Source of the DNA: Hypomesus transpacificus | Taxonomy: Eukaryota; Chordata; Actinopteri; Osmeriformes; Osmeridae | Direction of reading: 5' to 3' | Length of the DNA stretch: 64,000 nucleotides | Assembly (NCBI RefSeq): GCF_021917145.1 | Contig: NC_061065.1 | Location: 7,032,313-7,096,312 of the forward strand | In this document: in pieces, positions 2,095 through 60,795 of the stretch | Layout: each line of letters opens with the position of its first letter | Numbering within the stretch: the first letter of the stretch is position 1 | The notes under the pieces: model-generated | What the model was told of the DNA's origin: nothing | The model's input: only the letters and a program-made list of their open reading frames with translations | The model's database searches: none | Position numbers and translations under genes: made by a program

Positions 2095-5000
2095 CTGTGG
2101 TGGAATGACGCCCCCGCAGATGACCAGGATGTCGGGGCGGTTCAGGTTCCTCAGCTCCTTGATGAGCTCGGGGACTAGCGTCTTGTGGCCCGCAGCCAGG
2201 GTACTGACTCCCACGCAGTGCACATCAGCATCCACAGCCTGCTGGGCCACCTCAAGCGGAGTCTGCTCTCAAGAGGGAACACAGGACAAAACGTGACTGA
2301 GACTCACACTAAGGATTTAAGGACAAATGGTTCATGATGAAAGACAGTGACTTTCAGGTCATTTTTGTTGTCAGGGAGACAACAAAGTTAAGCCCGGAAA
2401 GGATCCTCAGACCAACTCAATATGGTCCTTTACCAAGGACAAACCGTTAATCTGACAGCCGCCTTGAAAACTACTGGAGAAAAATAGATCTGTGAAGCTA
2501 CACAGGTGCAAATGAATTAGATTCCACTTAACAGCCATCAATACCTTAAGAAAAGCCTGTTTACATGTAGGTTCACCTAAAATGACATGAATTAGCCATA
2601 AAAAATAGCACGCCAGGCGTGAACCTACAGGGAAGCTGTCCCAAGGGCAGGCAGAGGACACAGGTTAGTGAGCGCTGGATGTGTGATGATGCCTTTTTAT
2701 CAAGGATCCCAAAAAGTGTAACAACAGGAGGAAGACGCATCACAACATGTAAATACTGCGAGGTGAAGTCTTCACTTCAATGACGTCTCGGAGGAGCGAT
2801 GACGCACACACGTGGCAGTTATGAAACCCAGGTTCCAGTCATGTAAGAGACACACACGGGTCACACTCACCCGTCTGAACAATCGGCTGGCATTTCCCTT
2901 GGTCACGTACTCGCAATTTTGATGGTATTTCTGATTGATGGATTTTTTTTTACTGTGTATGTACAAAAATAAATAATGACTTGGCTAGAGCAAGTTTAAT
3001 CTTTGGCTGTGGTAGGAAGTAAAATAAGGTTGATGGATGACAGCTAGAGATTTGATTTAGACAATAGTTGAGACTTATCTTGGCGACACAGGGTCACACA
3101 CATCTCAACTCTGAATTGGAAGTCATTACACATTAGATTTGACACAAAGTCATACAAAGACATGCTTCTGTCACTAACGTCAGCGAAAAGATAAGAACCC
3201 TAACAGACGGTATCGTACGTCCTTCTTTCAACTTCATCCAAATGCGTACGATCTCTATCAAAGTCGTTTAAGGAAACGTCTCTATTGAAACTTTCGCTTT
3301 AACTGAATTTATTAGATTTGCTGACCAGACTCCAAGACCACGTTATCGCTCTGTCACAGCCATAATACTGTTTAGATGTCTCACCCGAGTGTACGAAGCA
3401 GACACTACCGTACCAGCAGCCCCCCACACACACACCATCAACTTGTGACCTCACTCTGTAAGGAGACAAATGATCTCGAGCATCGTTCTAGAACACTGCA
3501 AGGGTCAATGTAAATATGAGTCAAGAACCTGAAAAGCTGGCTGAGAGAAGGTAAAGCAGAGAGACTGGGCTCTGGGGGCAAGCAGCAAGAGATAAATTGC
3601 CATACTTCACTGCATGGAAGGTTTTCCCTGGTGGTCCAGCTAATTGTCAGTCTCTCTGTCTCTCTGTATCTCTCTCTCTTGAAGAGGAAGAGGTTAGGGA
3701 GGCCGAGAATGTTAATGATACCTAGCCAGTAGAAAAAAGGAAATGGGCACTTTGCATGAACAAAAGGGAGGGATTAGTGATATTTTCCAAACTTGTGTGA
3801 AACACTAGCTTAACTCCAAGGTATTCTCCATTGATCTGCAGAGCAGCTGTGTTCTTCATTTGTGGGGAATGTTTTGGCTTGGTCTACAGAGGCTATTTTA
3901 TCTCGTTAGACAGCATTAAACATGAGTATGGCTCTTGTATATATCCCTACAGCTGCTCACTGTAATACAGAGTAATAAACAACCTCGTTGGAATAAATGT
4001 AACCTCGGGCCCCCAGCGCCTCAGATGATACAGGCCATCGCTGTCTACAACACCACACAACATTTCATAAGGGAATGGGTATAGCTCAGTAGTGTAGCTT
4101 CAGACTGGTCTAGTAGTTGCACACAGGGCTAAAAACTAACAGCGTCCCGTCAAAAAAACTTTGCCCCCCCCCAAAAACGTTTTTAAAACCTTTTTTTACC
4201 ACTACCACACCAATAATTGCGTTAGCCCCACCACAAAACAAGCAAGACAATTTTGTATTCTCTTGTGTATGTATTCACATTGAAATTCAGATATTGATTT
4301 GAGCCCCTCGACTGTATGGATTAATTAAATAGTGTCGGAAATAACCTAGACCCATGTCAGGATGTCAAAAACACAAGAATTTACATTTTGGGACAGGTCA
4401 AGTTCAGTTTGGGACGATTCATTTTGCACTTCAGGATGGTACTGGGACAGTGAGGACAAAAGTTAGTTGCGAGCCCTGGTTCCAGGTTCACATCCTAGTC
4501 TGTATATCCCACTTTGGATCAACTGAATCCATTATTATTAGCATTATAAATCAAACCCATGAGCACACCATCAGCACTGTACGTGCTGACTCACCTGGAA
4601 GAGAGGTCCAATGTCCACATCAAAGCCCAGGTCAGCGAAGCCTGTGGCGATGACCTTTGCGCCCCTGTCATGACCATCCTGGCCCATCTTCGCCACCAAT
4701 AGACGAGGGTTTCTCCCCTCATGCTTTTTAAACTCAGTAACCCTGGAAACGCCATGCAAGAAATGACTTTATCAGCACATACACAGTAAACGTCTGTGAT
4801 CAAGTGTCCCACCACAAAATGTCTGAATGAACACTCGTGATGCCAAATTACAGAACATCATTGTACTGTACAAACAGGAGTCAGATGGCTGAGCGGTTAG
4901 GGAATCGGGCTAGTAATCAGAAGGCCACTGGTTCGATTTCCGGCCGTGCCAAATGACATTGTGTCCTTGGGCAAGGCACTTCACCCTACTTGCCTCAGGG

Positions 5001-8000
5001 GGAATGTCCCTGTACTTACTGTAAGTCGCTCTGGATAAGAGCGTCTGCTAAATGACTAAATGTAAACAAATGCGACATACTCTACTTTGCTGTTCTCAAA
5101 AGGATGAGGACTATGAAAATGATGCACATGATTATCTAAATACCTAACACAGCATCACTCAAGGGCTGCATTTTCTTTTTAAATATAAAACCTTGTTTAC
5201 GAACACCTTCATAATCAGATTAAAGAGAGGCATCATGAAGCCTTGTAAGCCAGTCCTAGTCTCACAGGTAGTTGTCCATCTTACCTGTTGTTGGTCAGCG
5301 AGATTTCCTCGTTTTCTCCGTACTCGCTGCGATAGGCTCCGCTCACCATCCTGGTGCTGGCTTTGTGCTCTCCAAACACAGTCTTCATGGCATCTGTGAT
5401 CTCCCCGACTGAACACCTGTTTAAGAGAACATGTTCCCTCGCAAGGATTATAAAGACAAACCAGTGGAAAAGGACTAGAGCCAAGCTAGGAGCATTCTAG
5501 AACCCGACTAGAACCATACCAAAACCATTCTAGAGCCAAGCTAGGAGCATTCTAGAACCCGACTAGAACCATACCAAAACCATTCTAGAGCCAAGCTAGG
5601 AGCATTCTAGAACCCGTCTAGAGCACGACGGGTCTGGGGTTTGGGGGCGTACCTGGCCCGTGCTGCGTCCACAGCCAGGCCCAGGAGGTTCCCCTCTCGG
5701 GTGCGAGCGCACTCCTCGATGGCTGCCAGACACGCCCTGGCCTTCTCTGCATCACGGCTCGCTCTGACCTGCGGGAAGAATAGCCACAACATTAGCATTA
5801 AGTCTTGGTCCAGCCTTTACAAGGAGGACATGGCCTGTGTGACATACTGAGACTGTATCCGTCTCACGGTACACTTTGTGTGAAGTGTGTGTTTCTAATT
5901 AGCCCCTGTGGCACAACAGCTGAAACTGAAACAACATCAGTTGTTGGGCAATTAGGCTTGGCTGTAGATCTCTCTATTACAGGGCTGTGCTAAATGTGTA
6001 CGCCACCAGTTTCTACAAATCAATGTCCACACAGACCCTGCTGAAAAAATACAGGCAGGTAGGCGGACAGAGAGAGAAACAGATGGACGTTCAGAGAACA
6101 GACAAGAAGACAGACAGGTAGACACACAGAATGAGAGACAGACAGGAAGATTTATCATTATATAAGGAGTTTATCTTACCTCAGGATGAAGCTAACAGAT
6201 GGTTCATGTTCATCAGGCATTTAAAACCTTCTACCTAAAGTCTTTCCATATCAAATCTCAACAACTAGTCCCTCAACCAGCCCGCCTCTGCCTTCATTAA
6301 CCGAACCTACACTTGTCTGAGAGTCTGACCAGCCGTTTCCCTGAGAGACAAAAGCGTGAAGAGGGAGGGATGTAAACTTGATACATCCGTGCTGCTCTTC
6401 TCTCAGGTCAACCCTGTTTGATGTCTTCTCTCAGGTCAACCCTGTTTGATGTCTTCTCTCAGGTCAACCCTGTTTGATGCTAAGTGACCTTTCAGGAGAG
6501 CCAGATAGACAGACCTTGCCTCGTGGCCTGCAGCATTAGCGTGGTAGAACCTGGCTTCCCGGACACTGGTGCTCCAGAGCCAATGTGTACAGCTCCTAAT
6601 GCACATCAAATGGATTTGATTCTAAACTGCCTAATCCCTTTGTGCTCAACAAATGCAACAAGACTATGCAAAAAAAAAAAAGAATAATTTCGCCCGGAGG
6701 AGATAATCCTACTGTTCATCCAATCGCCTCTCACCCAGGCAGACACCATGTAAAAGAGATCCCAACTTTGGCAATATGTGCCAGCCTGCAGCTGTATGCC
6801 TGGGAGCTCATGTTGGCTTACAGATGCATTTTGAATCACAGCGGTGGAGGAATGAAAATGTACAATGTACAATAATAAATCAGAGTGGATGAAGCCATCT
6901 GCCTGCTAGCAATCCAAATCCATGTTCCTGACACCAGATAGTAGGAAACAAAGAATTCTACCGAGGATAAACAGGTCAAGGATGCAACACAGGAGCCTGA
7001 GGAGTAACCTTTCCTTCAGCGGATCAGATTTACACACGTTGGACCACAGATTGGATGATTCTTATCTAAGCTTTTCAGGGCCAAACAATAGCGTAGCTTT
7101 CCTTGGAGAGATAAAGGTTGTCATTAAATGTAATACACAAACTGCAAATGTTTACTCTTCGACAGGTCTGCAAACACCTTTGTAAGCAGAGATTTGTTAA
7201 AATCTCGACCGTAGGTCAGCGTTTGCTGACCTGTCGAAGAGTAAACATTAGGTTTCTTAAATACTACAACAATACGCGGGAAGATCCCAATACAAACGGA
7301 TTTGTTTACCTTTGAAAACGTCTCTGGACCAATAAGAACAGCGTATTGATCTAATTATACTACTAGTATATAAGGAACTAGTTTATTTCTAGAGAGCCGT
7401 TTCTTCTCATGTGAAAGCCGAACACCATAATCGGGTCTTATGACCCAAATTTATCGTTGAACAGGAGACTTAGAAAACAGCATCATGTAAAGCACTGCAT
7501 TTGCTATGGAGGGTTATGATCAAATGGCATTACGGCTGAAAACATTTGGAGTAGTGCGGATTAGGTGAAATATAATCAAATTATCCAAATGATTTATTTC
7601 AGTTGCATTGCAGAGACACATAGCCCTATATTCTGTGTATCTGTGAGTCCTTTGTATTGCTGATAATTATATAACCTCAATGTTATAACTCAGCACAGAT
7701 AATGGTATTATCTTTGTTGAGTTAAAAACCTCTTATTTTACTTCCTGACTCTTATCCAACATCTCTATGAATTTTGGTTTGTGTTTTTGTCAGCTGAAGT
7801 GTTGAAATTTCAGTTTAGGAGAAGACAGCGGTTTGTTGAAACATGTTTAGCTGAACCCTGTTAGAGATCTGAGCAGTATATTGTGGAGCACAGCAATTCA
7901 ATCTAAACCTCAATTCACCTTTCCATAGATAACCATCTGCAGCAAGGTCGACTCCTTAATCGACTCCTTAATCAAACCTGAACCTGAACCCTGATACATC

Positions 8001-11000
8001 TGATGAGGTTATTTTTGGCAAACATTCCTTTGCTGGTCTAATACCACAGATGGAACATATGATCAAGCGTGTTTGTTTGAACTCTTAACACGAGTTCAAA
8101 CAATGTTGCATGGATGTGTTTGTGAGCAAAATGGTAAGACTATCGCTGGAGCTGTGATGTGCTCTAACAAGACAGACAGACACAGACCCTTGTGAGCGTA
8201 CTATGTTACTCACGTTCTTCAGTTTGTTGATCTGTTTATTGCGCACGCTGGTGTTGTCTATAGCCAGCACTTCCACCGTCTCCTCCGTCTCCAGACGATA
8301 CTTGTTCACACCCACAATGACCTCACTACCTGTGGAGGCCAATCATGAGGAGACACGTTCTGGATCAATAAGACGACCAAGAACACGCACACACACACAC
8401 AGACACACACACACACATCTGCTACCTGAGCAGCACCAGCTACAGCCAGCTGAAAGCATGGGAACATCTGTGTTTGTTTTCGTCACAAGAGACTAAATCC
8501 CGATTTTACACAGAAAACACCCATGAGTAGGGGGGGGGGGGTCACTTTCAAAGCTAGACAGTAGCCAGTTTGCTCCCAATGGGTTCACTTGGCAAGGAAC
8601 ACTGACAGATCCCAAGTCACCTCATTCCTCCACCTCTCCCACTCCCCCCTCCCTCAAACCCCCCCCCCCCTCTTCACAGGCCTGGCTCTGTGAAGAGGGC
8701 AGCAGCAGTTGGAAGGGCTCTCTCCCCCTCTCTCCCCCCCTCTCTCCCCCCTCTCTCCCCGTCTCTTCCCCCCTCCCTCTCTCTCCCCCCCCCCCCTCTC
8801 CCCCCCCCCCCCCCTCTCCCCACCCTCCCCCCTCTCTCCCCCGTCTCTCCCCGTCTCTCCCCCTCTCTCTTCACAGGCCCTGGCTCTGTAAAGAGGGCAG
8901 CAGCAGTTGGAAGGGCTCCCCTGCGTGCCACATGCTGGCTAACCCCTGCCATGTTCACAAAGCCAATCCTCTGCCATCTGACGCCAGCCGGGGGTCCTCG
9001 CTGGGATGAAAGGCACAGATGAGGGAGATGGAGCCAGGATTTCAGGGGGGGGGGGGATGCGTGTTTGTGGTCAAACAGGTGTGAATACTGAGAAAACCAA
9101 TTCAACCCCATGAGATAGTCAAGTAACATGACATGATATTAAAGTGATAAGAGAATTGTATACTATATTGACAGCACTGGGCAGAAGTCTTAGGCCCCCA
9201 AGATTTGTGACGGATATTGCTTGTCTTTATTAGATTTTTGTCCTCTATATATGTGTGTTTAGTGAGACAGGAATAAGAGCATGGATCTTGTTGCTATGGT
9301 GTTTGGATTTGGGATGTAATTTCTCGTCTGGTTAAGACAACATGACAACGAGCCTGGCCCCAATAAAGCTTCAGCCTTTAGTCGAGGCCCATTCTCCAAG
9401 GAGAGCCACAGAAGATGAATAGATCGACAACTGAAATCCAACTAAATCCCAGAATTAACATGCACACACACTTGAAGCCCACACTTGACAACAATTCCCT
9501 TATCATTAGCCTCTTAATCCCAGCCACATCACACCATCTGTGTAAACACACCCTCAACACACACCACACACACACACACACCTGCACAAAGTGTGCGACT
9601 CCTTCCATAGCAGGTATTATTTAAGGCCAATGATGAACGTGTGAGACCAGGGAACGGAGTGTGCAGTAGGCAGAGCTTGTAGATGGCTTCTGCTGGGCTC
9701 CCCAGAGAGGCCCCTGCAGAGGCAGGGCCTCAGGCTGGCCCGCAGCCACGCCAGCCAGAAAATTGCTGTTAAAATTCATATATGCAAACTGTGTGTACGA
9801 AGGACTATGTGGAATTCATATGAGAATGGAGAGTTTTACAGTCCACTTTAATACATATGTCCGCTTCGGCGCATTCAGGATGTGATTGAGAGCTGCTGTG
9901 GAATTTAATGGGAATCTGAACGTTTGAGGATGAGGAGGGCAGACACGGGGTCAGATCGCACACAGAGAAATGTGTGAGTAGCCTGGGGAGACCTCTAACG
10001 CCCCCCCCCCCCCCCCCCCACCCCCCCCATCCTCCCTCCAGTATCTGGGGACAGATGTGAGGCAAGTCCCGGAGGGTGTGCTAACTCGCTGCTCTCATCA
10101 CACACGGGTCCCTTGGAGAAAGCAGAAACCGTTGGGCATCCGTAGCCCGCTGCCTTGCTTCTCAGGGACTGGCGTGGTCAGCGACAATGCTGATGCCATC
10201 TGCTGAACGAGAAGACCACAACAGCTGGCAGCTCTGCCCTCCAACTCGACTCTAAATGAAGCATGTGACTAATTGGTGGTTGTGCTATTTTGGAAACTGT
10301 ATGGGTCTGGGTGTAGGTCTGGAGGTTCTCTGGGGCGGGAACAGAGAGTTTGGGGTGTGCTCAGGCCCTTGTGCATGACTACACATCAACACGACTGACT
10401 GAAGAGCACTCTACATCCAGTAACCCACGACTTTCTATTGAATGTATTCAGTGGACAGTTTGAAGGTCCTTTCGAGGTGTTCTGTTGTCCTTTTCAAAGA
10501 AGAAGGCCTTCTAAAGAAAAACATTGTGTTCTGAAAGAGCATGAAATATGGTTGCATAGTGTCTGGTAAATAAAGACATGGTTGGTGGGAACTAACCAGT
10601 AACCTTCTGTGCACTTCTGATTCTTGACTATCTGTTGTGCTTACTTTATGAGCTGCTTCTTTGTCCCTTTAGTTTAACGCATGTGCTGAATGAAACAATA
10701 TCCCTCCCCCTTCCCCCCAAAAAAGTTTAATGAAATATTGAGTGGATGCCTTCTGCCTGACTGGGCCCCCAGTCTGCCTTGGGGGAAACACTTACCTTAA
10801 AGGGTCGTGGAGGAGAGGGAGAGAGCAGGTGAGAGAGAGCAGGAGAGAGAGAGCAGGAGGGAGAGAGCAGGGGGGAGAGAGCAGGGGGGAGAGAGCAGGA
10901 GAGAGAGAGCAGGAGAGAGAGAGCAGGAGGGAGAGAGCAGGAGGGAGAGAGCAGGGGGGAGAGAGCAGGAGAGAGACAGCAGGAGGGAGAGACCAAGGGG

Positions 11001-14000
11001 GAGAGAGCAGGTGGGAGAAAGCAGGAGGGAGAGAGCAGGAGGGAGACAGCAGGAGGGAGAGAGCAGGTGGGAGAGAGCAGGAGAGAGACAGCAGGAGGGA
11101 GAGAGCAAGGGGGAGAGAGCAGGTGAGAGAGAGCAGGTGAGAGAGAGCAGGAGGGAGAGACCAGGAGGGAGAGAGCAGGTGAGAGAGAGCAGGAGGGACA
11201 GTTAGGTCAGGCTGGTACAGTGTGCAGTACCTGAGTCTATGCGAGCCTGTCTGCGGGCAGCACACTCCTCTATGCGTAGTTTAGGAATGCCCTCCGCCAC
11301 AGCCCGGGCCATGCCCCCCATCTCCTCAATCTCACTGATGAACTCTTAACACTTACCTTAAAGGGTCGTGGAGGAGAGGGAGAGAGCAGGTGAGAGAGAG
11401 CAGGAGAGAGAGAGCAGGAGGGAGAGAGCAGGGGGGAGAGAGCAGGGGGGAGAGAGCAGGAGAGAGAGAGCAGGAGAGAGAGAGCAGGAGGGAGAGAGCA
11501 GGAGGGAGAGAGCAGGGGGGAGAGAGCAGGAGAGAGACAGCAGGAGGGAGAGACCAAGGGGGAGAGAGCAGGTGGGAGAAAGCAGGAGGGAGAGAGCAGG
11601 AGGGAGACAGCAGGAGGGAGAGAGCAGGTGGGAGAGAGCAGGAGAGAGACAGCAGGAGGGAGAGAGCAAGGGGGAGAGAGCAGGTGAGAGAGAGCAGGTG
11701 AGAGAGAGCAGGAGGGAGAGACCAGGAGGGAGAGAGCAGGTGAGAGAGAGCAGGAGGGACAGTTAGGTCAGGCTGGTACAGTGTGCAGTACCTGAGTCTA
11801 TGCGAGCCTGTCTGCGGGCAGCACACTCCTCTATGCGTAGTTTAGGAATGCCCTCCGCCACAGCCCGGGCCATGCCCCCCATCTCCTCAATCTCACTGAT
11901 GAACTACACAGGGCAACACACACAAACACACGTACTAACATGGAGCAAATCTCTTCTACACAAGTTGGAAAAAACGAAGTTCTAAGCAGTGGAGAAGTGG
12001 CCCTTGACCCTCCTGACCCCTGACCTTTAGGGCGGTGTTGTAGACGTCATCTGTCAGGGCCTCCATCATGTGGGATCCGCCCCATGGGTCGGCCACGTTG
12101 GGTATCCCAGACTCCTCCTGGATGATGATCTGGGTGTTGCGGGCGATGCGGGCGCTCTTGACCGTGGGCAGACCCAGAGCCTCGTCAAACGAGTTGGTGT
12201 GGAGTGACTGGGTCCCCCCGAACACTGCTGCCATGGCCTCGATCACAGTCCGCACCACGTTGTTGTAGGGGTCCTGGAGGGGGGCGCAGACAGAGCCCTC
12301 TGGGTCTAGCACTGACACTTAGGACAGACACTCCACATGGAAGTGGCTTCATACCACATCCACATTCAGATCCGCCTGAATTCACTGACGCTGAAGACCA
12401 TCATGTCTGTTAGAACAGCTAATCTGATGTTATATGTCTGTGAAAACCCCATGCAGGATCCCATGGTGCCAGTGTTGGCTGCAGGTACCTGTTCAGTGAG
12501 AGACCATCCTGAGGTCTGGCAGTGCGTTCTGAGGAGGAGGGACTTGGCCATCTTGGGCTGGAAGTTCTTCTTGATCAGCGTGGCCCAGAGTCGCCGCCCA
12601 GCCCGCAGTTTGGCTATCTCCATGTAGAAGTTCATGCCAATGCCCCAGAAAAAGGACAACCTGACAGGACAGAGGGAGGGAGGGAGTGTGCGTGTGAGAG
12701 AGATTTGTCTAAAAACATGCATCTTCATGTCAAGAGACAATTCATTCTGTCAAAACACTTCAAAGAACTAAATTAATGAATTCAGGATTGGGCCAGCCTC
12801 CAACTTTATAAGACCCTTTTCTCTGTGAACGACCTACGCTTCAAGTTAAGGCTCTGTCACTATAGACTGGATGATGAGGATGTTTCAAGATCACCACCCT
12901 CCCACAAACCAGGAAGTGTCTGTGTGATTGGCAGATTAGCTCCAGTTTGCTGCAGAGAGCAAATGGAAGGAGGATAAAGGGAGGAAGAGGGAGGGATGAC
13001 GAGGGCTGGCATGTAGCTTATGACGCATAACAGAACACTCAGAACAAAACAAAGGAGTTTGAGTGAGATGGTGAGGTCAGTGAATATGTAGTTTCTCTTC
13101 AGCACCTTGGGAGAGAGACACATCTCACGACTGAGCTCTCCTTCCCTGGCGGTCTGCAGTGTACTATCTGATCTGGAGGACTGTCACATGGCTCCACAGG
13201 GCACAGTGGAGACAGGCAAACTCAAGACAACAGACAGAGACTGTGGGAACATAACTGAGACTGTGTGACTGCTCTGGGCATTATAAGCCCATCCATTACT
13301 TTCACACATGGGTTTTTGTGAAGTTATGATCTTGATACAGATCTTATGACCAGGGCTGTGGGAAGCGGGGATGCTGATAAATAAATGAATTCAATTGAGT
13401 TTTAGACAAAGAAAGGTAGCTGAATATTCATTTCTCATATCAAGGTCGGCAATGAGCACCACGGACAGCGTACAAGCATTCCACACAGTCAAGCCAACGG
13501 CCTTTATCTGATGGACGATTTTTGAAAAGAATAACCGGCCATGTAGAGTTGCTGCTACTGTCGTGTTGGCCGCAGCCTGTCTGAAGTAGATTGACTAGCG
13601 AGGTGAATAGCAAATGGGATGTGAGATGAGCGGTTACGTGACACTGACACACTACATTCAGAAAATATTTTTTTTTCAAATAGGTTAAAATAAATATTGA
13701 AGTCACTCATTGTTGTAAATACAAGTTAGCTTGTTAAAGTCTTTCACGATCGTAAATGGAGGCTTTGACTACGTCACTGTTGTTATGGTTACTTATTTAA
13801 GATATTTTGTACAGGCTCCTGTGTAGCAAGCGGAATAATTTAGAATGGTGAAAAGACAGATTTTCTGCAATGACGCAGTAGGTGTACGTTATCACCCTAT
13901 AATGTACACCCCTGCAGCCAATCAGAATTGAGTATTCACCCAGACCATGGTATAAGCATCTATATATTAGTTCAGATTCCCGCAAAGACTGCGGCATGTA

Positions 14001-17581: not shown

Positions 17582-20500
17582 TCACTCCAATTTCAGCAGC
17601 TCCACGTCGAAAATGAGAGTGGCGTTGGGAGGGATGACCCCTGGGTGGCCCGTCGCTCCGTATGCCATGTCCGGTGTACAGGTGATCTTAGCCCGTTGGC
17701 CCAGGCTCATCTGCCGGGTGTGGAGAGAGGAGGGAGAGGGGGTTATGAAGGTAAGACCACTGTGCTGTGTGACACCTGTGTGTGTGAGTGTTCTACTGCA
17801 GGTGTCTTGTCTCACCTGTGCAACTCCTTCCTCCCAGCCTTTGATCACCTCCTGCCGTCCGATCTTGAACTTGAAGGGCTTGTTTCTGTCTCGAGAAGAG
17901 TCAAACTTCTTCCCATTCTGGAGCATCCCTGACACGGAGAGACCACAAAGTCTCATTCATCTTAACCGTCAACGATATAAAAGACCTCCCATTGTACTGT
18001 CTAAACACCACAAACAGGAAATGCTCACATACACGCCATTGTTACACACTAGTTAGATGTTTCTACAGTTCTTCAAATTAAGCATTGTGTGTGTTCTGGC
18101 TTCCCTTGTTTCCAAGACCAAACACAGCCTTTCTTTCATGTCGGAAAAGCATTTCAACATCAAAGCAAAGATGAAGGCAGCTTTTAATATTTTAGGTATG
18201 TCCTAAAACCATGGACTGATTCCAGTGGTCCTACTTATTCTGATCTTGCGCTTGTTTCAGTGGTTTCAATGGACAAGTGAATGTGGAATATGACGCATTG
18301 GCCTGATTCAGTAGATTTTTTTCTGAAGTTAAGTAGGCCATTGCTAGCCTGCATCTGGACCACAGGGGAGTTTGTCCTGTGTGTGCGTGTGCGTGAACTT
18401 TGCTGACCATTCAGGCATGCTAATACAATCAACCTCATTGGACACTTCCACAACAGAAAGAATGCTTTTAACCACTGCAATACATGACAAACTTGAGATA
18501 TTTATGTCTTTCGTAAGCACACAAAAAAAGAAGTGTGTTAAGGCTGAGGAACCAAGTGCCATCCTTTCAGAGGAGTAGCCTGTCACAGACACAGCAGAAA
18601 CCTTCTCCTTACCCACGGTATCAAATATCAACCTGAACCCAGATCCCCCAAAATATCCCGCTGGGTAAGACAACATAAATAATCAACACCAGCCTGTAAA
18701 GCATCGCCGTGTATAATGGTGGCGAGGGTATTTTAGTGTCAGATGGAACATCTCTTAATGTAGCAGTCCTTGGTCATCTACAGTCCCACCGAGATGGACC
18801 AATGATTCCATCACACACAGACATAACATCAGCGTAAATAGTTCCCATTAAAACCAGCCAACTAGAGAGATGAATCTTGTACTGTACTGGCTGCTTCTCC
18901 CCTTACAGTCCTCCCTAAACTTAGCCTAGCAGGAGCTGATGCTTCCAGGAATCCCTGTTGCACAGATATCACTGGGCTCCTGGCCTGGAGTCACAAGGGA
19001 CATGCCTGCATGGGTCTTACAGAAATTCCCTGGTTCAGGTCTGGGTGACGACCATCTGTTAATACTCTCCCACTGGCAAACCACAAGCCCTCTGTTGCAG
19101 CCTATTTCTATCTTAAATCTGTCTGAGCTCTTTCATTTAGGAAAAAAACATTTACTGGCTTTTCTGGCTGAAACCAAAAAATGAGCAGTGTTGTGATAAT
19201 TTACAGTGGTTTCCTGTTCCACTAGTATCTGAGGGTCCAAACTGTACAGATCAAAGGGAAAAACAGTTGTGTGTTGGTGATCAGCAGACGAATAGAGAGT
19301 TTAGTTGTAGCCAACAAGCCCAGTGGTCGAATAGAACCGGAGCTGAGTTGGGGTGAGGTCCCTGCAAATGAGCTGTCTTGAAACAAGGCTGGGCCATTCC
19401 TTTCCTGCGGCTCAGCCCCAGCCCCAGACACTCTGTCTTAAGAAGCGTGAGAGCTCAGAGCTCAGTAGGAGTCCGACGCTATCTGGAAACGCTGTGTGAA
19501 GGGGGGGGGGGTGGGGGGCTATTTTTACCCTGTTTACTGTATCCCTGTCTTAGCCCCTGTCTAGCAGGCTGGCCACACGGCCTCCGCAGCCGAGGCCCCG
19601 ATGAAACCAGATAGCGCACGTATGCCATCTGCTTACGACACACTATCGTAGACGCGTTGGCACATCTCAGGGCTGCAAACGCAAATGTGTCAACGTCAAG
19701 AAAACCTGTTCATGCGTCGTTTATCTTTCAGGAGATGCAAGATGAGGAGGGTGTAGGGTTTCATTTCTTCAGCGTTTAATTAGGCAACATGGTCACGGCT
19801 AACGTAGGTTATGAGCTTCAAAGACGTGCCTGGTTTAAACCTGAGCCATGACGCTTTGCTGTTTTAACTGTGAAGAAAAGAATCATAAATTTTGTGTGTG
19901 TGTGAGTCCGCCTCTGAGGCTGTCTATCATAGGTGGGATGGAGTGGGCAACAACTGCTTACATTTTTGGTCTAACTATTCGAACAGTTCTGCTAATGGAC
20001 AGAACCCACCATACGTGATTCTACTTTGCGTACAACTCCTAAACTCACCACACCAACACAGCTCTGCACTGCACCAATTATCCCCCATTCAAAAAAATCC
20101 GCATTCCACAGAAGACACGTTCAATCCTTGAAATGTTTGTTTCTATTTCAGTGCGACACCCTGACCAAGTGGCCTAGTGGCAAAGTTGTCACGTTTCACG
20201 GGAGCAGTGCTCAACTACAACGTGGAGAGAGACGCCTCATTTCTCTTTATGACATCAGGGCAGTGAGGCCAGGGGAAAAGGCCCGGCTTCATCCACAATA
20301 CTATGATCACAAGTCATCAATCATCCATCACACCAGCAGCATGTTTAAGGATTTTACCTCAACTAAACTCCTGTCAGCTAGGGTGGCAGGAAGTTCCCAC
20401 ACTAAACCTCGTTCAGCTTCCTCCTACCGGCCTCTCTTTCCACTTAACGTTGTTAGTGTTGTACCTAGCTGTGATGACAGGCGACTGAAAAGCAGAACCT

Positions 20501-22907: not shown

Positions 22908-24358
22908 TTTGAAAAATATATAAACAATGGTAATTAAAGCAAACTAAAAGCAGGTTATATAGCTATACTGGTAGCTACTGTGCAAGCTACAGTAAGACCA
23001 TTCATGCACAGATCCACATAGGTCTGCTTCTGCAAGATTGTATTACACCACTAGGTGAAGATATCCCCTACTATGAGATGTTAAACGTCCGCTCAATGTC
23101 GTCGTAAACCGTGGTATTTGAGCCAAATATTTGACAATTATTTTGTGAATAGCAAATGATCTCTAGATTAATATACACTTACGTATGGAGTTGTAAAATG
23201 TACTTTTTAATTGTATTTTATATCCATTACCTCAAGCACCATACCTTCAACAAAATACGATTTTCCTATCCTACAGCACCATCTTGTGTTTAACATCTGA
23301 ATAACGTAGAAAAGTTATAAAACGTCAAATCCCATAATTCCCAGTTTTATCAAACTTTTCAGTTCCAGGTCCGTCGAGAAACTATTCAAGCCGGGAAAAA
23401 GTAAACTAAACGTGGGAAACTGGTTAATGATTTGTTTTAGAAATTTGGTATTATCTGCACAAATACGTTTATCACATTAACAAGAACGTTGACATATCGC
23501 AAGCGTCTGTCAAGTGTCAACGTCGTAAGTGCATTCTTTCTCTGTGTTCATGCATGGCTGTCTGCTAGCCGTTCGTTGCTGTCACGATGCTATGTTAATG
23601 AGATACGAATCAATGTTCACTGCCTAGAACTTTATTAAATAAACGTGGTATTATTGCATTTTACTTCTAAACAACCCCAACTCAAAGTGAAGCCTTTATA
23701 TTCACGAACATCAACAGAAAGCTTGGCTACGTTAGACGGCACAGGTATTAGCAATCCTGCTTGTTGTAGCCTATAGCACCGCCCCCTAAGTGACATACCT
23801 CAATCCTTTACAGCAGGGGTGTCGAGCTCCGGTCCTCGAGGGCCGCTGTCCTGCATGTTTTAGATGTTTCCCTGATCCAGCTCACCTGATTCGAATGAAT
23901 GGTCGTTATAACAACCCTTTTAATTGAATCAGGTGTGTTGGAGCAGGGAAACATCTAAAACATGCAGGACAGCGGCCCTCGAGGACCGGAGTTCGACACC
24001 CCTGCTTTACAGGTAATGTGACGTTCCTCCACAGTGGTTGGTTCCCAAGATACTAGTGTATTATGTACACTGATCTGCGTAGGTAAGGTCACACTGGTCT
24101 TAAGCAGCTCAGTCCATTTCTCATGTAGTGGGGGGATTAAGGATTTCACCCTGATAAAGACACAGGGAAGAGGCTTTTCCTATTCTTAGTGTGTGATGGC
24201 AGCCGGGGTGACTTGTTAGAGCTAGTTAGTCCCCTGCATGACAACCTCACCCAAGGCTTGGATCCTCCTTTCACTTTCATCAATGTTGCCGATTGAGTGA
24301 TACTTCTTTCATTTCCTCTCGTTCGTCGGGTTAACCTGTGATCCCCTCTCTTGTCAGT
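22908..24358. promoter_or_regulatory. Divergent fkbp1b / wdcp upstream region
   Basis: About 1.45 kb separates the two divergent start codons, so the promoters of both genes should lie here. wdcp needs an upstream non-coding exon, because an acceptor (cttgtcag) ends one base before its ATG. GTAAGT at 23526-23531 is one possible donor for it. A 191-bp hAT-type element occupies 23814-24004. Confidence 0.5.
23814..24004. mobile_element. Non-autonomous hAT-type MITE with 8-bp TSD
   Basis: The element starts CAGGGGTGTCGAGCTCCGG and ends with the near reverse complement CCGGAGTTCGACACCCCTG, so the terminal inverted repeats extend over 60 bp. It is flanked on both sides by CTTTACAG (23806-23813 and 24005-24012), a perfect 8-bp target-site duplication, which is diagnostic of hAT elements. 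There is no transposase. It lies between fkbp1b and wdcp, about 350 bp upstream of the wdcp start. Confidence 0.93.
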
Positions 24359-27300
24359 ATGGATCTGGGCAAAGCCAAGCTGTTACGGACGGGACTGAAC
24401 ACTCTCCACCAGGCTATCCACCCAGTCCACGGGTTAGCGTGGACGGACGGGAAGCAAGTCTGCCTCACCTCTCTCTGCTGCGTCAATGGGGAAGTCAAAT
24501 TCGGCGACACCAACGTCATCGGGCAGTTTGAGCACGTGCTGGGGCTCTTCTGGGGCCCGCTGTGCTGCTCGGGCTCCGCGGCCCTGCTGGCCGTCCAGCA
24601 CAAGAAGCATGTGACCGTGTGGCAGTTGCAGCTGAGCTCCTTGGAGCAGAACAAGCTGCTGTGCACCCAGACCTGCGAGATGAGCGAGCCCTTCCCCCTG
24701 CTCTCCCAGGGCTGCGTGTGGCACCCTAAGATGGACATTCTGGCGGTGCTGACCAAGAAGGACGCCTCGGTGCTCTTCTCCGTCCGGGTGGACAACCGCC
24801 GGGTGAAGGCGGAGATCCGAGCCAGCGGACTGATCCACTGTGCCTGCTGGACCCAGGACGGCATGCGCCTGGTGATCGCTATAGGCAGCGCCCTGCACTC
24901 CTACATCTGGAACGACATCCAGAAGAGTCTGGTGCCGTGCTCCTTCTGCCCCGTCTTCGACGTGGCCGGCTACATCTGCGCCATCGAGTCCACGGGGGGT
25001 GCCCAGGTGGCCGTGGCGACAGAGCTGCCCCTGGACAGGATCTGTGGGCTGAACGCGGGGATGGCGTTCGATCTGCCCGCAGATGGCGAGAACCTGTCAG
25101 GGGAGTGCTCTCCCGTGGTCCTGCTGGATGAGGACGGCTGTCTGGACCGGAGGAGGTCCTTTAACTTTGACAGGTCCTGCATCTCCTCAAACTCAGGCCC
25201 CATGGACCTCACCCACATCCTGGCCAGACACCGGCGCTCTGACCCCAGCCCCCTCATCCACCTTCGCCGCAAGGACCACCTGACAGGCTCCGGGCAGGAC
25301 TCCTCACACCTGATCCTGGTCACCTACGAACGGAAGGTCACCACCACCCGTAAGGTCAGCATTCCTGGCATCCTTGTCCCGGACATCGTGGCCTTTGACC
25401 CCAGGGGCGGTACGGTGGCAGTGGCGTCTAACACGTGTAACATGGTACTGGTCTACTGCATCATGCCCTCGGCCATGCCCAACGTCCAGCAAATCTCCCT
25501 GCAGAAGAACGAGAGGCCCAAGGGAGTGTGCTTCCTCACTGACAAGATGCTACTGATGATGGTGGGAAAGCAGAAGTCCAACGACCCCGCCTTCCTCCCC
25601 TCCTCCAACACTGACAAGTACCTCCTGAGAATCACCTACAAGGAGCTTGTGTACGACGGAGAAGCCCCCAAAGCCTGCTCCCCGAGCCCAGGATACCCCG
25701 ATTCCCCCGTCAGCCTCCACCACGGGATTAGGAGACACTCTGAGTCCTCCAGCAAGGAGGAGCGAGAGCGTGTAGGGGGGATAAAGGAGCTGGTGCTGCC
25801 TAGCGGGGCTGTAATCTCATCTGCGTCACCTGGGAGCAGGCGCAGGCTGGTGGAGGAGGTCAGGAGCCCTGAGCCCAGCCCCTTCGCCAGCTCCACGGAC
25901 TTCTCCGACCGAGCCCCCTCCAGTGCCTCCTCAGTCACGGTGGAGAACTTCGACATGGATCACGTCCACCGCATGTCCTCGCTGGCCGTGACCGGCCAGG
26001 CCAGCCGCGAGTCCAGCCGACCCAGCTCCCCGCGCTTCGACCCAGCGGACAAGTTCCACAGCGACCCCACCCTGCCCAAGACCACCTGCCTCTCTAAGGA
26101 GCGACCGGTGGACCAGCTCAGCCAGAACATGGAGAGGATCTTTACACGGTTCGCCGACATGCAGCAGTGCCTGGCAGAGATCAGAGACTTCACCCAGAAC
26201 GGGAAGAAGGCCCAGGGGGGCTACCCCAATGCCTGCGAGCCCCCCTATGTCAACGTCACATGCCAGGTAGGCGCTTGTCTGCACATGTGGGTTCTTTCAG
26301 TTGATACTGTAGGCTAAAGACATCCTCTGTTGTATTCAAGAAAAAATGGCTCAATGGATGTCACTGTAAAAGGGTTTTGTTAGAGTCGATTTACGGTGAG
26401 ACACTGATGGGAGGAGGTTTTTTGAGGTGAAGGATTTTATGTCATCAGATTACTAATTTACTGCTGCTGTCTGGATAACACGACACCATGGAAAGACCTC
26501 GTATGGAAATACCTCAGTTAATGGGATCATACACTTGCCTATAAGTGAATTGGTGTTTGGTCACACGTGCAAAGCTTGTATACATGCAGAGCCCCACAGG
26601 CCCACAGGGTTAATAGGGTGACACCCATTGTCAGCTGCCAGCTCTCCACTGCCAGATTATTATTTGTTAACCAGATTAAGACATTGTTTGTGTTGCAAAG
26701 ATAGTCTTCACCACAGGGTCAAGCAAAGGAGATGAACACCCTCATTTACCTCTCCTTCTCTCCCCCTCCCCTGTCTCTCCTTCTCCCCCCTGTCTCCCCC
26801 CCTTCTCCTCCCATTTCTCCTTCCCTCCTCCCCCCGTTTCCTCCTCCCCCCGTCTCCCTCCCCCTCCCCCTCCCCTATCTCTCCTTCTCCCCCGTCTCCC
26901 CTCCTCCCTCCCCCTCCCCCTATCTCTCCTCCCCCCTGTCTCCCCTCCTCCCCCCTCATCCCTCCCTCCGTCTCCCCCTCTCTTTCTCCCCCTCCCCCGT
27001 GTGCAGAAGCAGCTGTCTGAGAACGTGTTTATAGACGAGAGGAGGCCGGTCCTGCTGTGTGAGGGGAAGCTGTCCCTGCGAGTCCTGCAGGAACTCTTCA
27101 ACACCTCCATAGTGGAGATGATGTATGGTACGTTCAGCACGTCCGGGCTCACCTTCACGGCACCCCCTCTCCCAGCACGTGTTCACAGCTTCCTCACGCG
27201 TTTGTACTGACGAGCAATTCCTCAGAAAACCAACCTTACTTGGCTTGTTTAATGGGAACTAGTACAAAAGAAGGGCCGTTAAGGTCAGGCTATCCTAGCC

Positions 27301-27893
27301 CCATCAGGTAGGAATGGTGCATGTGTAACGTGTAGATGTTAGCCGTAGATGTACTTTTTTAAACAGAAAGGTTTGACAGCAGAAATTGTTCTTCAGTCGA
27401 GGGAGGAATTGAATGCAGGCTATTACTGGAAGTGATTAACAGCATTGATGAGATTACAAAGCCTTAAAAGCAAGCTGCTTACAGCTCCACGCGAGAAGTG
27501 TGTGTGCTAATAGAACTCTAAAATACTCCTAGTTGGTATAATCCCATCGGTCAACTGAGCAGTTTGTTTTTGTTTTTCTGGTCGACCCGTTGGGGTTGTG
27601 TCAATGGCATGGTCATACTTTGTCATCGTGCAGCGAGGCTCAGCTGTGTTACGTAGAGACAGTGGACACATGAGTGAAGTGAGCCTTCTCTACTGTCTGC
27701 AGGTCCGCTCTGGGTGGTGTTGGTGGCTGACGGGGAAGGCTTCGTGCCGCTGGCGTTCAAGCCCAAGGAAGAGCTCACGGTGCGGAACGGGAAGAGGAAA
27801 TCTCCCCTGAGGTCTCCTGGAAGTCCCGAGGGGTCTTGTCCGTCCAGTCCCGTCCAGGGCAGCACCAATAACCACAACTCAGCCTCGATATAG
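24359..27893 (+). CDS. wdcp: WD repeat and coiled-coil-containing protein
   Basis: WDCP (human C2orf44) is a WD-repeat protein with a C-terminal coiled coil. The human protein is reported to self-associate and to bind the SH3 domain of the kinase HCK, and it is known as an ALK fusion partner. Coding exons 24359-26266, 27007-27127 and 27703-27893 join in frame to 739 aa, against 721 in human. The start [14 protein letters not shown] aligns with the human [14 protein letters not shown], and the first large exon holds the beta-propeller region. Strong matches include [36 protein letters not shown] and [12 protein letters not shown] Ser/Pro-rich region (about 445-600) precedes the predicted coiled-coil segment near [21 protein letters not shown]. 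The stop TAG at 27891-27893 lies inside the first unit of a 20-bp minisatellite. The gene is divergent from fkbp1b and convergent with mfsd2b. Confidence 0.95.
26755..27000. repeat. C/T-rich low-complexity tract in wdcp intron
   Basis: About 245 bp of CTCC/CCCT-rich sequence on the plus strand, running up to the acceptor of the wdcp exon at 27007. It forms an unusually long polypyrimidine tract. Confidence 0.9.
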
Positions 27894-28540
27894 ACACCCC
27901 AGCCTCGATATAGACACCCCAGCCTCGATATAGACACCCCAGCCTCGATATAGACACCCCAGCCTCGATATAGACACCTCAGCCTCGACAGACACCCCAG
28001 CCTCGACACAGACACCCCAGCCTCGACACAAGACACCTCAGCCTCGACACAGACACCCCAGCCTCGACACAGACACCTCAGCCTCGATATAGACACCCCA
28101 GCCTCAATACAGACACCCCAGCCTCAATACAGACACCCCAGCCTCGACACAGACACCCCAGCCTCGACACAGACACCCCAGCCTCGACACAGACACCCCA
28201 GCCTCAACACAGACACCTCAGCCTCGATATAGACACCCCAGCCTCAATACAGACACCCCAGCCTCAATACAGACACCCCAGCCTCGACACAGACACCCCA
28301 GCCTCGACACAGACACCCCAGCCTCGACACAGACACCCCAGCCTCGATATAGACACCTCAGCCTCCATATAGACACCTCAGCCTCCATATAGACACCCCA
28401 GCCTCCATATAGACACCTCAGCCTCCATATAGACACCTCAGCCTCCATATAGACACCTCAGCCTCCATATAGACACCTCAGCCTCCATATAGACACCTCA
28501 GCCTCCATATAGACACCCCAGCCTCCATATAGACACCCCA
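27881..28540. repeat. 20-bp minisatellite, about 33 units
   Basis: Units follow AGCCTCGATATAGACACCCC, with variants at the centre (CGATATAG, CGACACAG, CAATACAG, CCATATAG) and end (CCCC or CCTC). Most units are exactly 20 bp; one is 18 and one is 21. A seven-unit pattern (140 bp) starting at 28081 recurs at 28221, differing only in the last unit. The last 200 bp are homogeneous CCATATAG units. The array covers the end of the wdcp coding region and the start of its 3' UTR. Confidence 0.97.
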
Positions 28541-28910
28541 GCCTCTCTTCTGCAGGGCCTCGTCATAGCACCCAGAGAACCCATCATCCTCCCATTCTAA
28601 CACGACTCTCCAACTTCACATACCCATGATCTCTGCATGTTGACACAAAAACAAGGCATGGCTGCATTCAAGGACTCGATTTTTATTATTTTCCGTTCAC
28701 CTGAGGATATATATTTTTTTACTGTTCTGTTTAAGATGATAATTGTGCTTTTGAAATACCCACCTTTCAATCTGAATGTTTACATGTACTTCTGAAAGGC
28801 AGCAATGAGATTACTGGCTGTGAGCAGGTTGGATGATACAGTCCTGTTTTTGCTGCTATAGCTACACTTTGCAACTGTGAAGGATGTTTTGTGTGTTATG
28901 ACTATTTTAA

Positions 28911-31550: not shown

Positions 31551-34500
31551 AGAGAGAGGGGGAGAGAGAGAGAGAGAGCGCAAGAAAAGAGAGAGAGCGC
31601 AAGAAGAGAGAGAGAGCGCAAGAAGAGAGAGAGAGCGCAAGAAGAGAGAGGTGATTAGCAGTACTGGGGCGAGGGTAATCAATAGAGCATCAGTAGAGCA
31701 TTCTTATTTACTCTCCCATCTCAAACACGACCAACTAAAGTCAGGAGGACGAGGCTTACAGTGATGCCACAGAAGGCAGCTGTCTTCTTCCCGAAGCGCT
31801 CCAGGAACCACTGCCACAGGGGGATGCTCACCACCGCTGACACCTGGCAGAGCACAGCAGCTTCAGCAGACGCACTCACACACGGTCAACACGTGACCTG
31901 GACTTTGACCTTGGGATAGCGTGGCCAGTCAAGGGGTCACGCATGCAACTGAGACGACTTGGGGCCAGCACTCACCAGGATGGTTAGCACGATGTTCTGG
32001 AAGTGGTCGCGGAGGTCCACTGCGTATGTGCAGAACAGGACAAAGTTGCTTTGCACCAACTGGAAACCAGACGTGAAACAGACTCAGAAACATTATCGTC
32101 TCTTCAGTTTTGTCTCTTTCTCTCTGCCAACTGCCAAGTCACTGTGGAAGTTGCTGACAGGGCCTGAACCGATTCATCCTCACATTCCCTCTTTGATGAG
32201 TGGACGAGAAGTGCATAAAATATACTGTAAGTAGGACTTTTAAAGGTTAAACTGAAACATTGAATCGGATTTTGAATAAATCTTCAGAACCACTTGATCA
32301 TATATAAGCCAGGGACACATTGTGTACATTAGCTTATGTTATCATTTCGTTATTAACGTCAACATATATATATAAGTAATAACATAATATTGCCTTGTGG
32401 CTACGTAACTGTAAGTAGTTCTCAGATTTGAAGGATTATGTCAGCGCTTTAGCTCTGCGCTCGAGTTGAGCTACTTTAAATACACTTCCGTGCTTTCCTT
32501 CCACTGATCGAATCAGCATTGAACACTGTCTATTTCAGACTGCAACGAGTGCTCCACATCCATGACTGTGTGTAACGCGTACCTGGATGGCCACGGAGAT
32601 GAAGAGGAAGGCGGCGGTCAGGGTGAGGTAAGGGCCATGCTTCATTACCAGGAAGAAGCCCCGATGGAAGGGGATCGGCTTGTCCGTCTTAGGGGCGTAC
32701 GGGTCTGGAAGGACAGAAGGAGATGCCACTTGCGTGTGGATCGAATGCCAAGCTGAGACCTTAGGAGTCATGAGAGGTGGGAGGGGGGGGGGGGAGGGGG
32801 CTGGAGGAGGGTTGGTATAGGCAGAGGCTGAAGGGGGGGGGGAGGGGGCTGGAGGAGGGTTGGTATAGGCAGAGGCTGAAGGGGGGGGGGGGAGGGGGCT
32901 GGAGGAGGGTTGGTATAGGCAGAGGCTGAAGGGGGGGGGAGGGGGCTGGAGGAGGGTTGGTATAGGCAGAGGCTGAAGGGGGGGGGAGGGGGCTGGAGGA
33001 GGGTTGGTATAGGCAGAGGCTGAAGGGGGGGGGGGGGGGGCTGGAGGAGGGTTGGTATAGGCAGAGGCTGAAGGGGGGGGGGAGGGGGCTGGAGGAGGGT
33101 TGGTATAGGCAGAGGCTGAAGGGGGGGGGGAGGGGGCTGGAGGAGGGTTGGTATAGGCAGAGGCTGAAGGGGGGGGGGAGGGGGCTGGAGGAGGGTTGGT
33201 ATAGGCAGAGGCTGAAGGGGGGGGGAGGGGGCTGGAGGAGGGTTGGTATAGGCAGAGGCTGAAGGGGGGGGGAGGGGGCTGGAGGAGGGTTGGTATAGGC
33301 AGAGGCTGAAGGGGGGGGGGAGGGGGCTGGAGGAGGGTTGGTATAGGCAGAGGCTGAAGGGGGGGGGGGGGGCTGTAATAGAAGGCGGGAGGTTGGGGGG
33401 GAGGATTCGCTCCAGCAACACTATAACTGCCCCTGCAATGCAGTGTATGTTCTGTTAGTTCCTGATGGGGGTTTCCACACACAGAGCCACCGCTGACAGG
33501 TTCACAGTCAGATCAGCAGCTCATTGACACTCATTCCACACAGGAGGCACTTTGATTCTGAGCACAGAATAAGGACTGGAAAATAGTGTTGAAAGCACAA
33601 GGTAGACATTGGACCACAGTCCAGAAAGACTGTTCAAAACAAGCACAATAATACTGCACTGCACGATTCTGTAATGAGGTTAGAATGAAACAGGAGATTG
33701 AAAAGAGAACACACACACACACATAGACACACTCACCATCTCTCTCTTTGACTCCCAGGAACATCACAACGGTGCAGATAAGAAACACTCCTCCTATGCA
33801 CCCAGCAGCTATCATATACACTTCTTTCTGCAAGAGAACCCAAAAACACCTGAATGTGAACATATTTCTTGCTGTCTTCCTGAGGTTACACAGACACAAA
33901 GTTAGTTCTATTTCCAGCCTTCCCCAGCTTCCAGACTGCCAAACACACTTCACTTCCTTACACCTCAGACCTGCTTGAATGTGACAGCTCATATGTGTCA
34001 ATGCTTTCCAAATCTGTACAACTGAACAAGTGTACCAGCACTTAAGAGTGTACTTCTTCAAACTTCTCGTTACAGATTTAAGCCTAAACAGGAAAATGCC
34101 TAATATAGATCAGATGGTTTCACGTCTAACCCCAACAGGAACTGCTCTGCCCTAAACAACTTCATCTTGTTTGCTGTTTTTCCATGTGGTGCATAAATAG
34201 AGGAGTGGTTTATTATTATTTTTTTCACATCAAACGCTCTCCATTTCCGAGAGGCTGCTGAGCGACCAGACTTTGTGCCACCCTTGCCCGTGACCATGGA
34301 GGAATCCGGCGGGTGACTGGAGAGCAGATACCGAGCCCTCTGACTGGTGAGAAGTCCGCCTCCACCGGGGTTTACCCAGAATCCCATGGCATGGAACCAG
34401 CAGAGCCCCGAATAGCTGCGGTGCGACCGAGGCCAACGTGGAACAGTAACCGACGCTGATCTGGTATGATTCACCTCCCAGAAACACACTGAGGGGGTTC

Positions 34501-34601: not shown

Positions 34602-36669
34602 TCTGGTATTGGGAGAGAGCTTCTCTGTGTCCACATAGGCTGGGGTTGGGGGAGGGGGGGCCTCACATATCAAATCACCCTCCTCCAATCAATGGTTGAA
34701 TAAGATGTGAGGCCTGCTTTCTCTTGGCACTAAACAGACTGCAATAATAAACTTCATTTCCTACAAACGTACATGAATAGGCCGGGTTTCCCGCAGAAAA
34801 TGTGTTAGTTAAGGTGGTAGGGTGGGGTTTGCAGTCAGACCGGGGATGGGTGCTAGTTTGTGCGATAGACTAATGCGTTCTGCAGGGAAGGGTGACTGGC
34901 ATTGGTCACGGTTTGGAACGGAATGGAGAAAACAGGACAACAGCGGATATCACTATTTAAATAAAAAAGTTATTTAAATTGCGGCAGGCGACCGCCTTAA
35001 CTGAAAAGTGCTTCGGGAAACCCTGAAAGATGTTTTTTGTGTGCTTCTGGACAGTGTTTTCCCCTTTTACGGTAAAGAAATTGCGTTCAGGGAGGGCAGC
35101 TTTGAAAGGCAGACCCGATCTGGACAGGAGGTCACCAACGTCAGTTTCATTTAGGATCAAACCGGAGCATCGTAGGGACACCTGGGCTCAGGTCACAAAC
35201 TGACACTCACCGCATGTGACAGGAAGTCCTGCGAGTGCACGAGGCTCCTGACGATCTCCGCCCCGCTGCTGCTGTTGCCTAGGTGACCGGCAGACATGTT
35301 TTGGTGCGGGCAGTGCTTCAGGGTGTGGGCGCTGGCCACTATCTGTCCTTGGATGGCAGCCCCCACCAGAGTGCCCAAAACCTCCAATGTCATCCCTGTC
35401 ATCAGAAAAGAAAAACTCAACATTATCACCCCATGTCTTTGTGAGACAGCAGCAATAGGTGGTTAGCGGGAAAGAAGGAAGAGCAGATAAGGATGCGTGT
35501 CAGTCTGGCAGGTGGAGAGACCTACGGTAAGCGGTGGCTGAGTCTCTCTCCTTCTGGTCCGTGCTCAGGAACATGGTGAGAGCAGAGTAAGGCACGTGGA
35601 AACACTGCATCCATCCAGCCAGCATCAGAGAAAACACACAGAGAAAACACAACTGAGTCATCGCAACACATAACATCGACACATAACCAGTAGAGAAAAC
35701 TTAGTAGTTATTACAAGTCTGCTGGAAGTTCTAGACCTGGCCTATTTTTCCTCGGAAATTAGTATCATTGTCGTGAGCATATAGCCAAATTTACACGATT
35801 TCTTCAAGATGCATTTCTCCAATTCACCCTGTCTGTGTCGTCCTCTACACTTACATTTATGTCCGAGTATCGGTTACACTTACATTTAGTCATTTAGCAG
35901 ACGCTCCTATCCAGAGCAAATTACAGTAAGTACAGGGACTTCCCCCGAGGCAAAACGTGTGAAGTGTCTTGCCCAAGGACACAACGTCATTTTGCACAGC
36001 CGGGAATTGAACCGGCAACCTTCTGATTACTAGCCCGATTCCTTAACCGCTCAGCCACCTGACCTCACTTCCTCCTCACACTAGTGGGGCACCAGTGAGC
36101 AAGCACAGCCCTCAGTCTTCACTTTGTAATTAACATATCAGCTCAGTCAGCATTGTGCTCCAGCCATCAGCATCCACACGCAGCCATGAGCAAAACACAT
36201 GCAACCACCAGAGACAACTCCAGTCCTTTACCCTGGCCTGTCCCAGCACAGCATGTCATTTGTGGGGCCTTAATGGAATGCCATTTATAGATTTGAATGC
36301 GCCTAGGAACGACATGATACAGTAGGAGCAGGAAGATAACAAGTCAAGTGACTAATCAAAAACCTAATAAGCCAATCAGATGATTATGCTGGCTCTTGAT
36401 GAAATATCTGTGTTCTTTGCATTTGTTTATTAATGGACAAAGGCTTTTGAAGTGTTAACAGCTGTCCTTTCCAAGATCCACACACACACAAAGACAATGG
36501 TGGGCCGCTAAAAGTGGCAACCAGCATTTAGCCACCCAGCGGTCGCCGGCCGGCCTGGATGTATACTTATCAAGTAGTTAGAATGACATGTCATTATAGG
36601 CCACCACAGTGTGGCTAATGTGGTCTCCACGCTCCGGAGCACATGTTAGAGAAGTTAGCCCCACAGCCC

Positions 36670-51601: not shown

Positions 51602-60795
<9,194 letters not shown>

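Follow-up and report, generated by a model that had tools for sequence, protein, structure and literature searches.

The mmut locus and its 558-bp repeat

We analysed a 64,000-nt stretch of the Hypomesus transpacificus genome assembly (GCF_021917145.1, contig NC_061065.1, positions 7,032,313 to 7,096,312 of the forward strand), hereafter called the window, in which the gene mmut carries a perfect tandem repeat around one of its exons. The mmut exons were located with a human MMUT probe, and their borders were set by splice consensus. On the minus strand 11 coding exons, all open, were found between 2095 and 15729, the last of them in the window being 2262-2095. The encoded product of 711 residues matches the solved chains 2xij and 8gju, both named mitochondrial methylmalonyl-CoA mutase, over residues 41-711 (E-value printed as 0), and has Pfam matches to MM_CoA_mutase and B12-binding. 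We take both chains to be human. The exons after the first have lengths of 368, 158, 172, 249, 112, 116, 116, 132, 148 and 168 nt, which presumably agree with human exons 3 to 12; the duplicated 112-nt exon is then, on the same assumption, human exon 7. The exons preceding and following the repeat, 12025-12273 (minus strand, 249 nt) and 8214-8329 (minus strand, 116 nt), lie where the first-pass annotation of this DNA had placed them. The human probe did not detect the final coding exon of mmut in the window. The sole run of N in the window (100 N, 1542-1641) is located between exon 2262-2095 and a TTTATT at 1431-1436, which reads AATAAA on the minus strand, and this gap may be where the last coding exon lies.

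Positions 10787-11344 and 11348-11905 are identical at 558 of 558 bases in the same orientation, as found both by reading the letters and by an exact-repeat search (offset 561), and this identity is far beyond chance. At this offset the pair is the single maximal exact repeat between 9500 and 13000, and a self-BLAST of the window returned the same pair at 100%. In gene sense the copy at 11348-11905 (minus strand) comes first and is nearest to the preceding exon, with the native acceptor side (unit B). The copy at 10787-11344 (minus strand) comes second and runs into the native downstream intron (unit A). Between the two units lie the three bases CTT (11345-11347) and no run of N. The bases flanking the repeat differ at both ends (A at 10786 and T at 11347; C at 11345 and A at 11906), and the junction therefore shows no microhomology. 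At all other offsets, 40-mers with exactly two occurrences in the window belong to tandem arrays; the one exception is a 40-bp pair that sits inside a dispersed short interspersed element (SINE), as seen when its coordinates were compared with the repeat lists.

Each unit contains a minisatellite of 27 units of 14 bp, GA-rich on the plus strand and CU-rich in the transcript, at 10815-11192 (minus strand) in unit A and, shifted by 561, at 11376-11753 (minus strand) in unit B. Eleven unit types were distinguished, and their order is the same in both arrays. Two arrays grown independently would not agree in this way, so that the two units must be one sequence copied, either by nature or by software. 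The description in the first-pass annotation, of two identical units separated by three bases and each carrying the same 112-bp mmut exon and a GA minisatellite with a 14-bp unit, was thus borne out.

Reading frame and splice signals of the two exon copies

The two copies of the exon, at 11792-11903 in unit B (copy B) and at 11231-11342 in unit A (copy A), both on the minus strand, are identical over their 112 nt; copy B starts in phase 0 and ends in phase 1. As two homologous exon copies are adjacent in the same gene and orientation, the assembly presents a tandem exon duplication. The path of 249, 112 and 116 nt, with copy B alone, reads through. As had been claimed, use of both copies shifts the frame: three foreign residues (VHQ) are followed by a stop. 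When neither copy is included, the frame likewise ends prematurely, after seven foreign residues (VVRSLWV).

Splice sites were scored with crude matrices. In gene sense, the unit starts with the AG of the exon acceptor, 2 nt upstream of the exon, and ends with GTAAGTGTT. Copy B keeps its native acceptor tgccctgtgtAG as well as its donor. This acceptor scores 3.45 (rank 1624 of the 9314 AG sites in the window) and is, by the crude score, itself not strong. In copy A, ...TTTAAGGTAAGTGTTAAGAG stands in place of the native acceptor sequence, and only the AG of the latter is left. With a unit boundary just 2 nt ahead of the exon, copy A has lost the native polypyrimidine tract and branch point; its acceptor scores -4.31 (rank 6698 of 9314), in line with the poor acceptor and neighbouring donor-like AAG|gtaagtg that had been described for the downstream copy. 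The donor CAG|GTACTG is common to both copies and, at 3.99, scores lowest among the donors of the 11 mmut exons. The simplest prediction is that copy B should be used normally and that copy A should be skipped, being lost within a longer intron. Since copy B keeps both of its sites, ordinary splicing past a dead copy A would suffice, and the duplication poses no paradox.

A donor-like site at the end of each unit

In gene sense, both units end with AAG|GTAAGT, at 11351-11359 in unit B, where it lies 14 nt before exon copy A and could also be a shifted acceptor, and at 10790-10798 in unit A, inside the native downstream intron (both minus strand). Of the 7792 GT sites on the two strands, none outscores AAG|GTAAGTG at 11357 and 10796 as a donor, and one other site, 55906, equals it. 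The same site also scores as an acceptor (5.55, rank 772 of 9314 AG sites), because the CT-rich minisatellite precedes it. Among 513 AGGT sites the pair takes places 23 and 24 when sites are ordered by the lower of their two scores, and places 3 and 4 when they are ordered by the sum of both. With cut-offs of 5.5 and 12, picked after the site had been seen, three sites pass on both counts, namely this pair and the mmut exon end at 4595, compared with a first-order Markov expectation of 0.325 per 64-kb strand (40 simulations). We regard AAG|GTAAGTG behind the CU-rich minisatellite as a candidate recursive or alternative splice site, which would be present in a single-copy gene as well.

If TTTAAG|GTAAGTG acted as an acceptor, a hypothetical exon of 126 nt would result (exon A', 11231-11356, minus strand). 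Following copy B, this exon reads GKC and then an in-frame TAA stop. Joined to copy B, it rebuilds CAG|GTAAGT with a score of 12.7, against 3.99 for its own weak donor. The start of exon A' thus rebuilds a 5' splice site at the exon junction, which makes it a putative recursive splicing (RS) exon by the definition in PMC6224609. The search motif for recursive splice sites in PMC10156609, a pyrimidine tract followed by YAG|GT, is not matched by this site, which reads AAG|GT.

The repeat in the context of the assembly

The assembly comprises 437,198,280 bases in 376 contigs. A search of it with the 558-bp unit, in which the best 40 of 1711 first-look candidates were scored, listed 119 matches. 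Among these, only the two window copies extend past query base 416, beyond which lies the unique and exon part of the unit; the remaining listed matches are minisatellites of the same kind with 70-88% identity. Neither a third copy nor a one-unit alternative haplotype on a small contig was among the 119 matches listed. The minisatellite of unit A is accordingly one of many, with over a hundred matches in the assembly at 70-88%.

In addition, we sampled 200 of the 437,198 kb as 20 stretches, each of 10 kb, taken from contigs C1, C6 (which holds the window), C9 and C10. In these 20 stretches there was no run of N and no perfect two-copy tandem repeat of at least 80 bp in complex sequence. Two exact repeats of at least 80 bp were detected from 40-mers seen exactly twice, both in low-complexity arrays (L027 and L028). 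A self-BLAST of the sample gave 26 rows of at least 100 bp at offsets below 3 kb; 25 of these fall in tandem arrays (L009, L019, L027 and L028), and the 26th is an 82% pair in L016. Within the limits of a sample of 200 out of 437,198 kb, perfect two-copy duplications do not appear to be common in this assembly.

The same mmut intron that holds the units contains a CT-rich array (8718-8869) flanked by a 60-bp direct repeat of 93% identity (8662-8720 and 8859-8918). As these flanks have diverged, an older natural duplication explains them better than an assembly error, and a duplication of flank and array seems to have happened earlier in this intron. At the array 55232-55514, the flank test found nothing beyond a 20-bp match located within the ends of the array itself.

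Other features of the window

Three further genes or gene parts were noted: an FKBP-type isomerase gene (17585-17956, minus strand), a WDCP gene with an open frame of 660 codons (24335-26314, plus strand) and an AAA ATPase exon (55970-56293, plus strand). We take these neighbours to represent the order FKBP1B-WDCP-ATAD2B. A SINE-like repeat of about 190 bp is present in four copies (4873-5066, 35874-36064, 48642-48836 and 53258-53450), three of which have the Rfam UnaL2 3' tail; SINE copies with this tail suggest a ray-finned fish. A palindrome of about 210 bp (23805-24013) is 88.6% identical to its own reverse complement and resembles a foldback element or a miniature inverted-repeat transposable element; weaker palindromes lie at 7147-7249 and 56462-56569. 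Long clean minisatellites were seen at 27880-28545 (33 units of 20 bp) and 32785-33372 (12 units of 48 bp).

Discussion

What is observed is the repeat with its boundaries, the relations of exon and frame, and the loss of acceptor sequence. From this we infer with an about even chance of being right that the duplication exists in the animal, that it arose by end joining and that copy A is skipped. In this account, 558 bp inside mmut would have been duplicated head-to-tail very recently, and the duplication might still be polymorphic. At the junction, ends lacking homology would have been sealed with a filler of 3 bp, as classical or polymerase-theta end joining leaves; end joining has been described to yield tandem duplications that carry inserted bases (PMC7368036). 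By starting 2 nt before the exon, the unit would have stripped copy A of branch point and polypyrimidine tract. Splicing would then run from 12025-12273 to copy B and on to 8214-8329, copy A would leave as part of the longer intron, and mmut would remain functional. If real, this is a duplicated exon within a conserved metabolic gene, caught before any base change, and it would illustrate a simple route to tolerance in which the extra exon is disarmed by the breakpoint itself.

Other origins of the junction were considered and rejected. Unequal crossing-over within the minisatellite was not the route, as the array is 28 bp from one end of the repeat and 152 bp from the other. Nor is a templated filler, which would suggest polymerase theta, indicated: a 5-mer that spans the filler does occur close by, yet an equal match was obtained in 63% of 20,000 random trials, any draw that included N being scored as a miss. 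For a junction derived from complementary DNA, a comparison by eye with the exon-exon junction found only AG in common.

The strongest competitor is an artefact of assembly, to which we assign a substantial chance, though one short of even. Two contig or read ends that share a 558-bp overlap around the GA-rich array would have been placed one after the other rather than merged, three bases closing the gap, and the animal would have a single unit. The order of left flank, unit, filler, unit and right flank is the layout of an unmerged overlap, and removal of one unit and the filler would probably leave an ordinary mmut locus. According to authors of the Vertebrate Genomes Project, homotype duplications occur where contigs meet and look like tandem copies once the contigs are scaffolded (PMC8081667); here, a scaffold gap is present at a distance of 9 kb. 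The array sits inside the overlap (28 bp to one side, 152 to the other), and GA-rich sequence is reported to break assemblies of high-fidelity (HiFi) reads or to cause dropout (PMC9186530, PMC9668749). Several further points weigh against a real duplication. Perfect identity would equally be expected from an assembly error, a wrongly filled gap can be free of N (PMC9516828), and the duplication is known here from the sequence of one assembly alone. One repeat end falls 2 nt from an exon edge, for which a calculation by hand gives a chance of about 0.8% for each breakpoint, and the 200-kb sample is too small to show how rare such errors are. The first-pass annotation had taken the 3-bp filler as a mild argument against an assembly error. 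This argument proved weak, as three bases are too short to show a template, and it is weakened further by descriptions of wrongly filled gaps between false duplicates (PMC9516828). Other observations speak against an artefact. PMC8081667 expects a gap between the copies, which are often of read length, and neither is found here, the only run of N in the window being that at 1542-1641. None of seven other GA- or CT-rich arrays tested has perfect duplicated flanks, the 93% flanks of the array at 8718-8869 are too diverged for an error of this kind, and no like case occurs in the 200 kb sampled from the same assembly. The identity at 558 of 558 bases also argues against a heterotype false duplication, since the latter needs divergent haplotypes (PMC9516828). 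Moreover, 558 bp would be short for a long read in an assembly that is probably of long-read origin, and together with the absence of a gap this favours a real duplication. On our judgement, which is not a computation, an about even chance thus stays with the real duplication and a somewhat lower one with the artefact, the rest going to variants, and the later facts are too weak to shift this. If the repeat is an artefact, it is an exon falsely duplicated around a GA-rich minisatellite with no gap to betray it, and it would mislead gene annotation.

The variants concern how a real duplication would be spliced. Exon A' might be recognised through the CT-rich tract and TTTAAG|G and included after copy B, which we consider improbable. 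Its shifted acceptor scores higher than the native acceptor of copy B (5.55 against 3.45), both copies have an identical donor, a branch-point-like CTCAC lies 34 nt upstream (counted by eye), and inclusion would lead to GKC and the stop. However, the acceptor triplet is AAG instead of YAG, the matrix is crude, and the rebuilt donor would compete with the weak donor of the exon itself. If true, the stop would lower mmut output and exon A' would be a new poison exon. Less probable still is that a ratchet-like site of the unit, made up of the CT-rich minisatellite followed by TTTAAG|GTAAGTG, gave rise to a recursive splicing exon in a single step by landing 14 nt before copy A. Copy B would be spliced to this site, and the frame-breaking exon would vanish without residue when the rebuilt CAG|GTAAGT beats its own GTACTG. 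In a single-copy gene the site could already rebuild a strong donor for the mmut exon with the weakest donor. A ready-made recursive site would then be what allows a conserved metabolic gene to withstand the out-of-frame duplication of an exon. That a PTB-type protein loops out copy A from between the CU-rich arrays (33 overlapping CTCTCT words per unit, no TCTT) is no more than a thought. The first-pass annotation had proposed tolerance by skipping or by either-or splicing. Skipping stands as the prediction; either-or use is the least probable of all these readings and hardly to be expected. The frame arithmetic, which forbids using both copies or neither, is that of a mutually exclusive pair, but by the crude matrix only one of the two copies has usable splice sites. 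With only the AG of its native acceptor, copy A is unlikely to be chosen, exon A' alone after 12025-12273 gives a stop, and identical copies would encode the same protein, so that nothing would be gained.

No mmut exon duplication is spoken of in the titles and abstract openings covered by a limited look at one open-access library. Among known systems, homotype false duplications (PMC8081667, PMC9516828) share with the mmut case adjacent copies from one locus, whereas the mmut copies are short and not separated by a gap. RS-exons and recursive sites (PMC6224609, PMC10156609) resemble exon A' in that its GTAAGTG start rebuilds CAG|GTAAGT (12.7 against 3.99). Exon A' differs from them in having AAG and not YAG, in having arisen by duplication and in being known from its sequence alone. 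Vertebrate tandem exon duplications (PMC9741552, PMC9013439) likewise have adjacent homologous exon copies and a frame rule against using both. In contrast to those cases, the mmut copies are 100% identical, one lacks the native acceptor, and no choice of isoforms is expected. The out-of-frame duplications in ATP7A patients (PMC3240829) comprise 2-15 exons with normal splice-site joins in the main transcript, whereas in mmut a single exon was copied and its acceptor cut off. Nevertheless, both are head-to-tail duplications that break the frame, and in both a wild-type transcript is possible by skipping.

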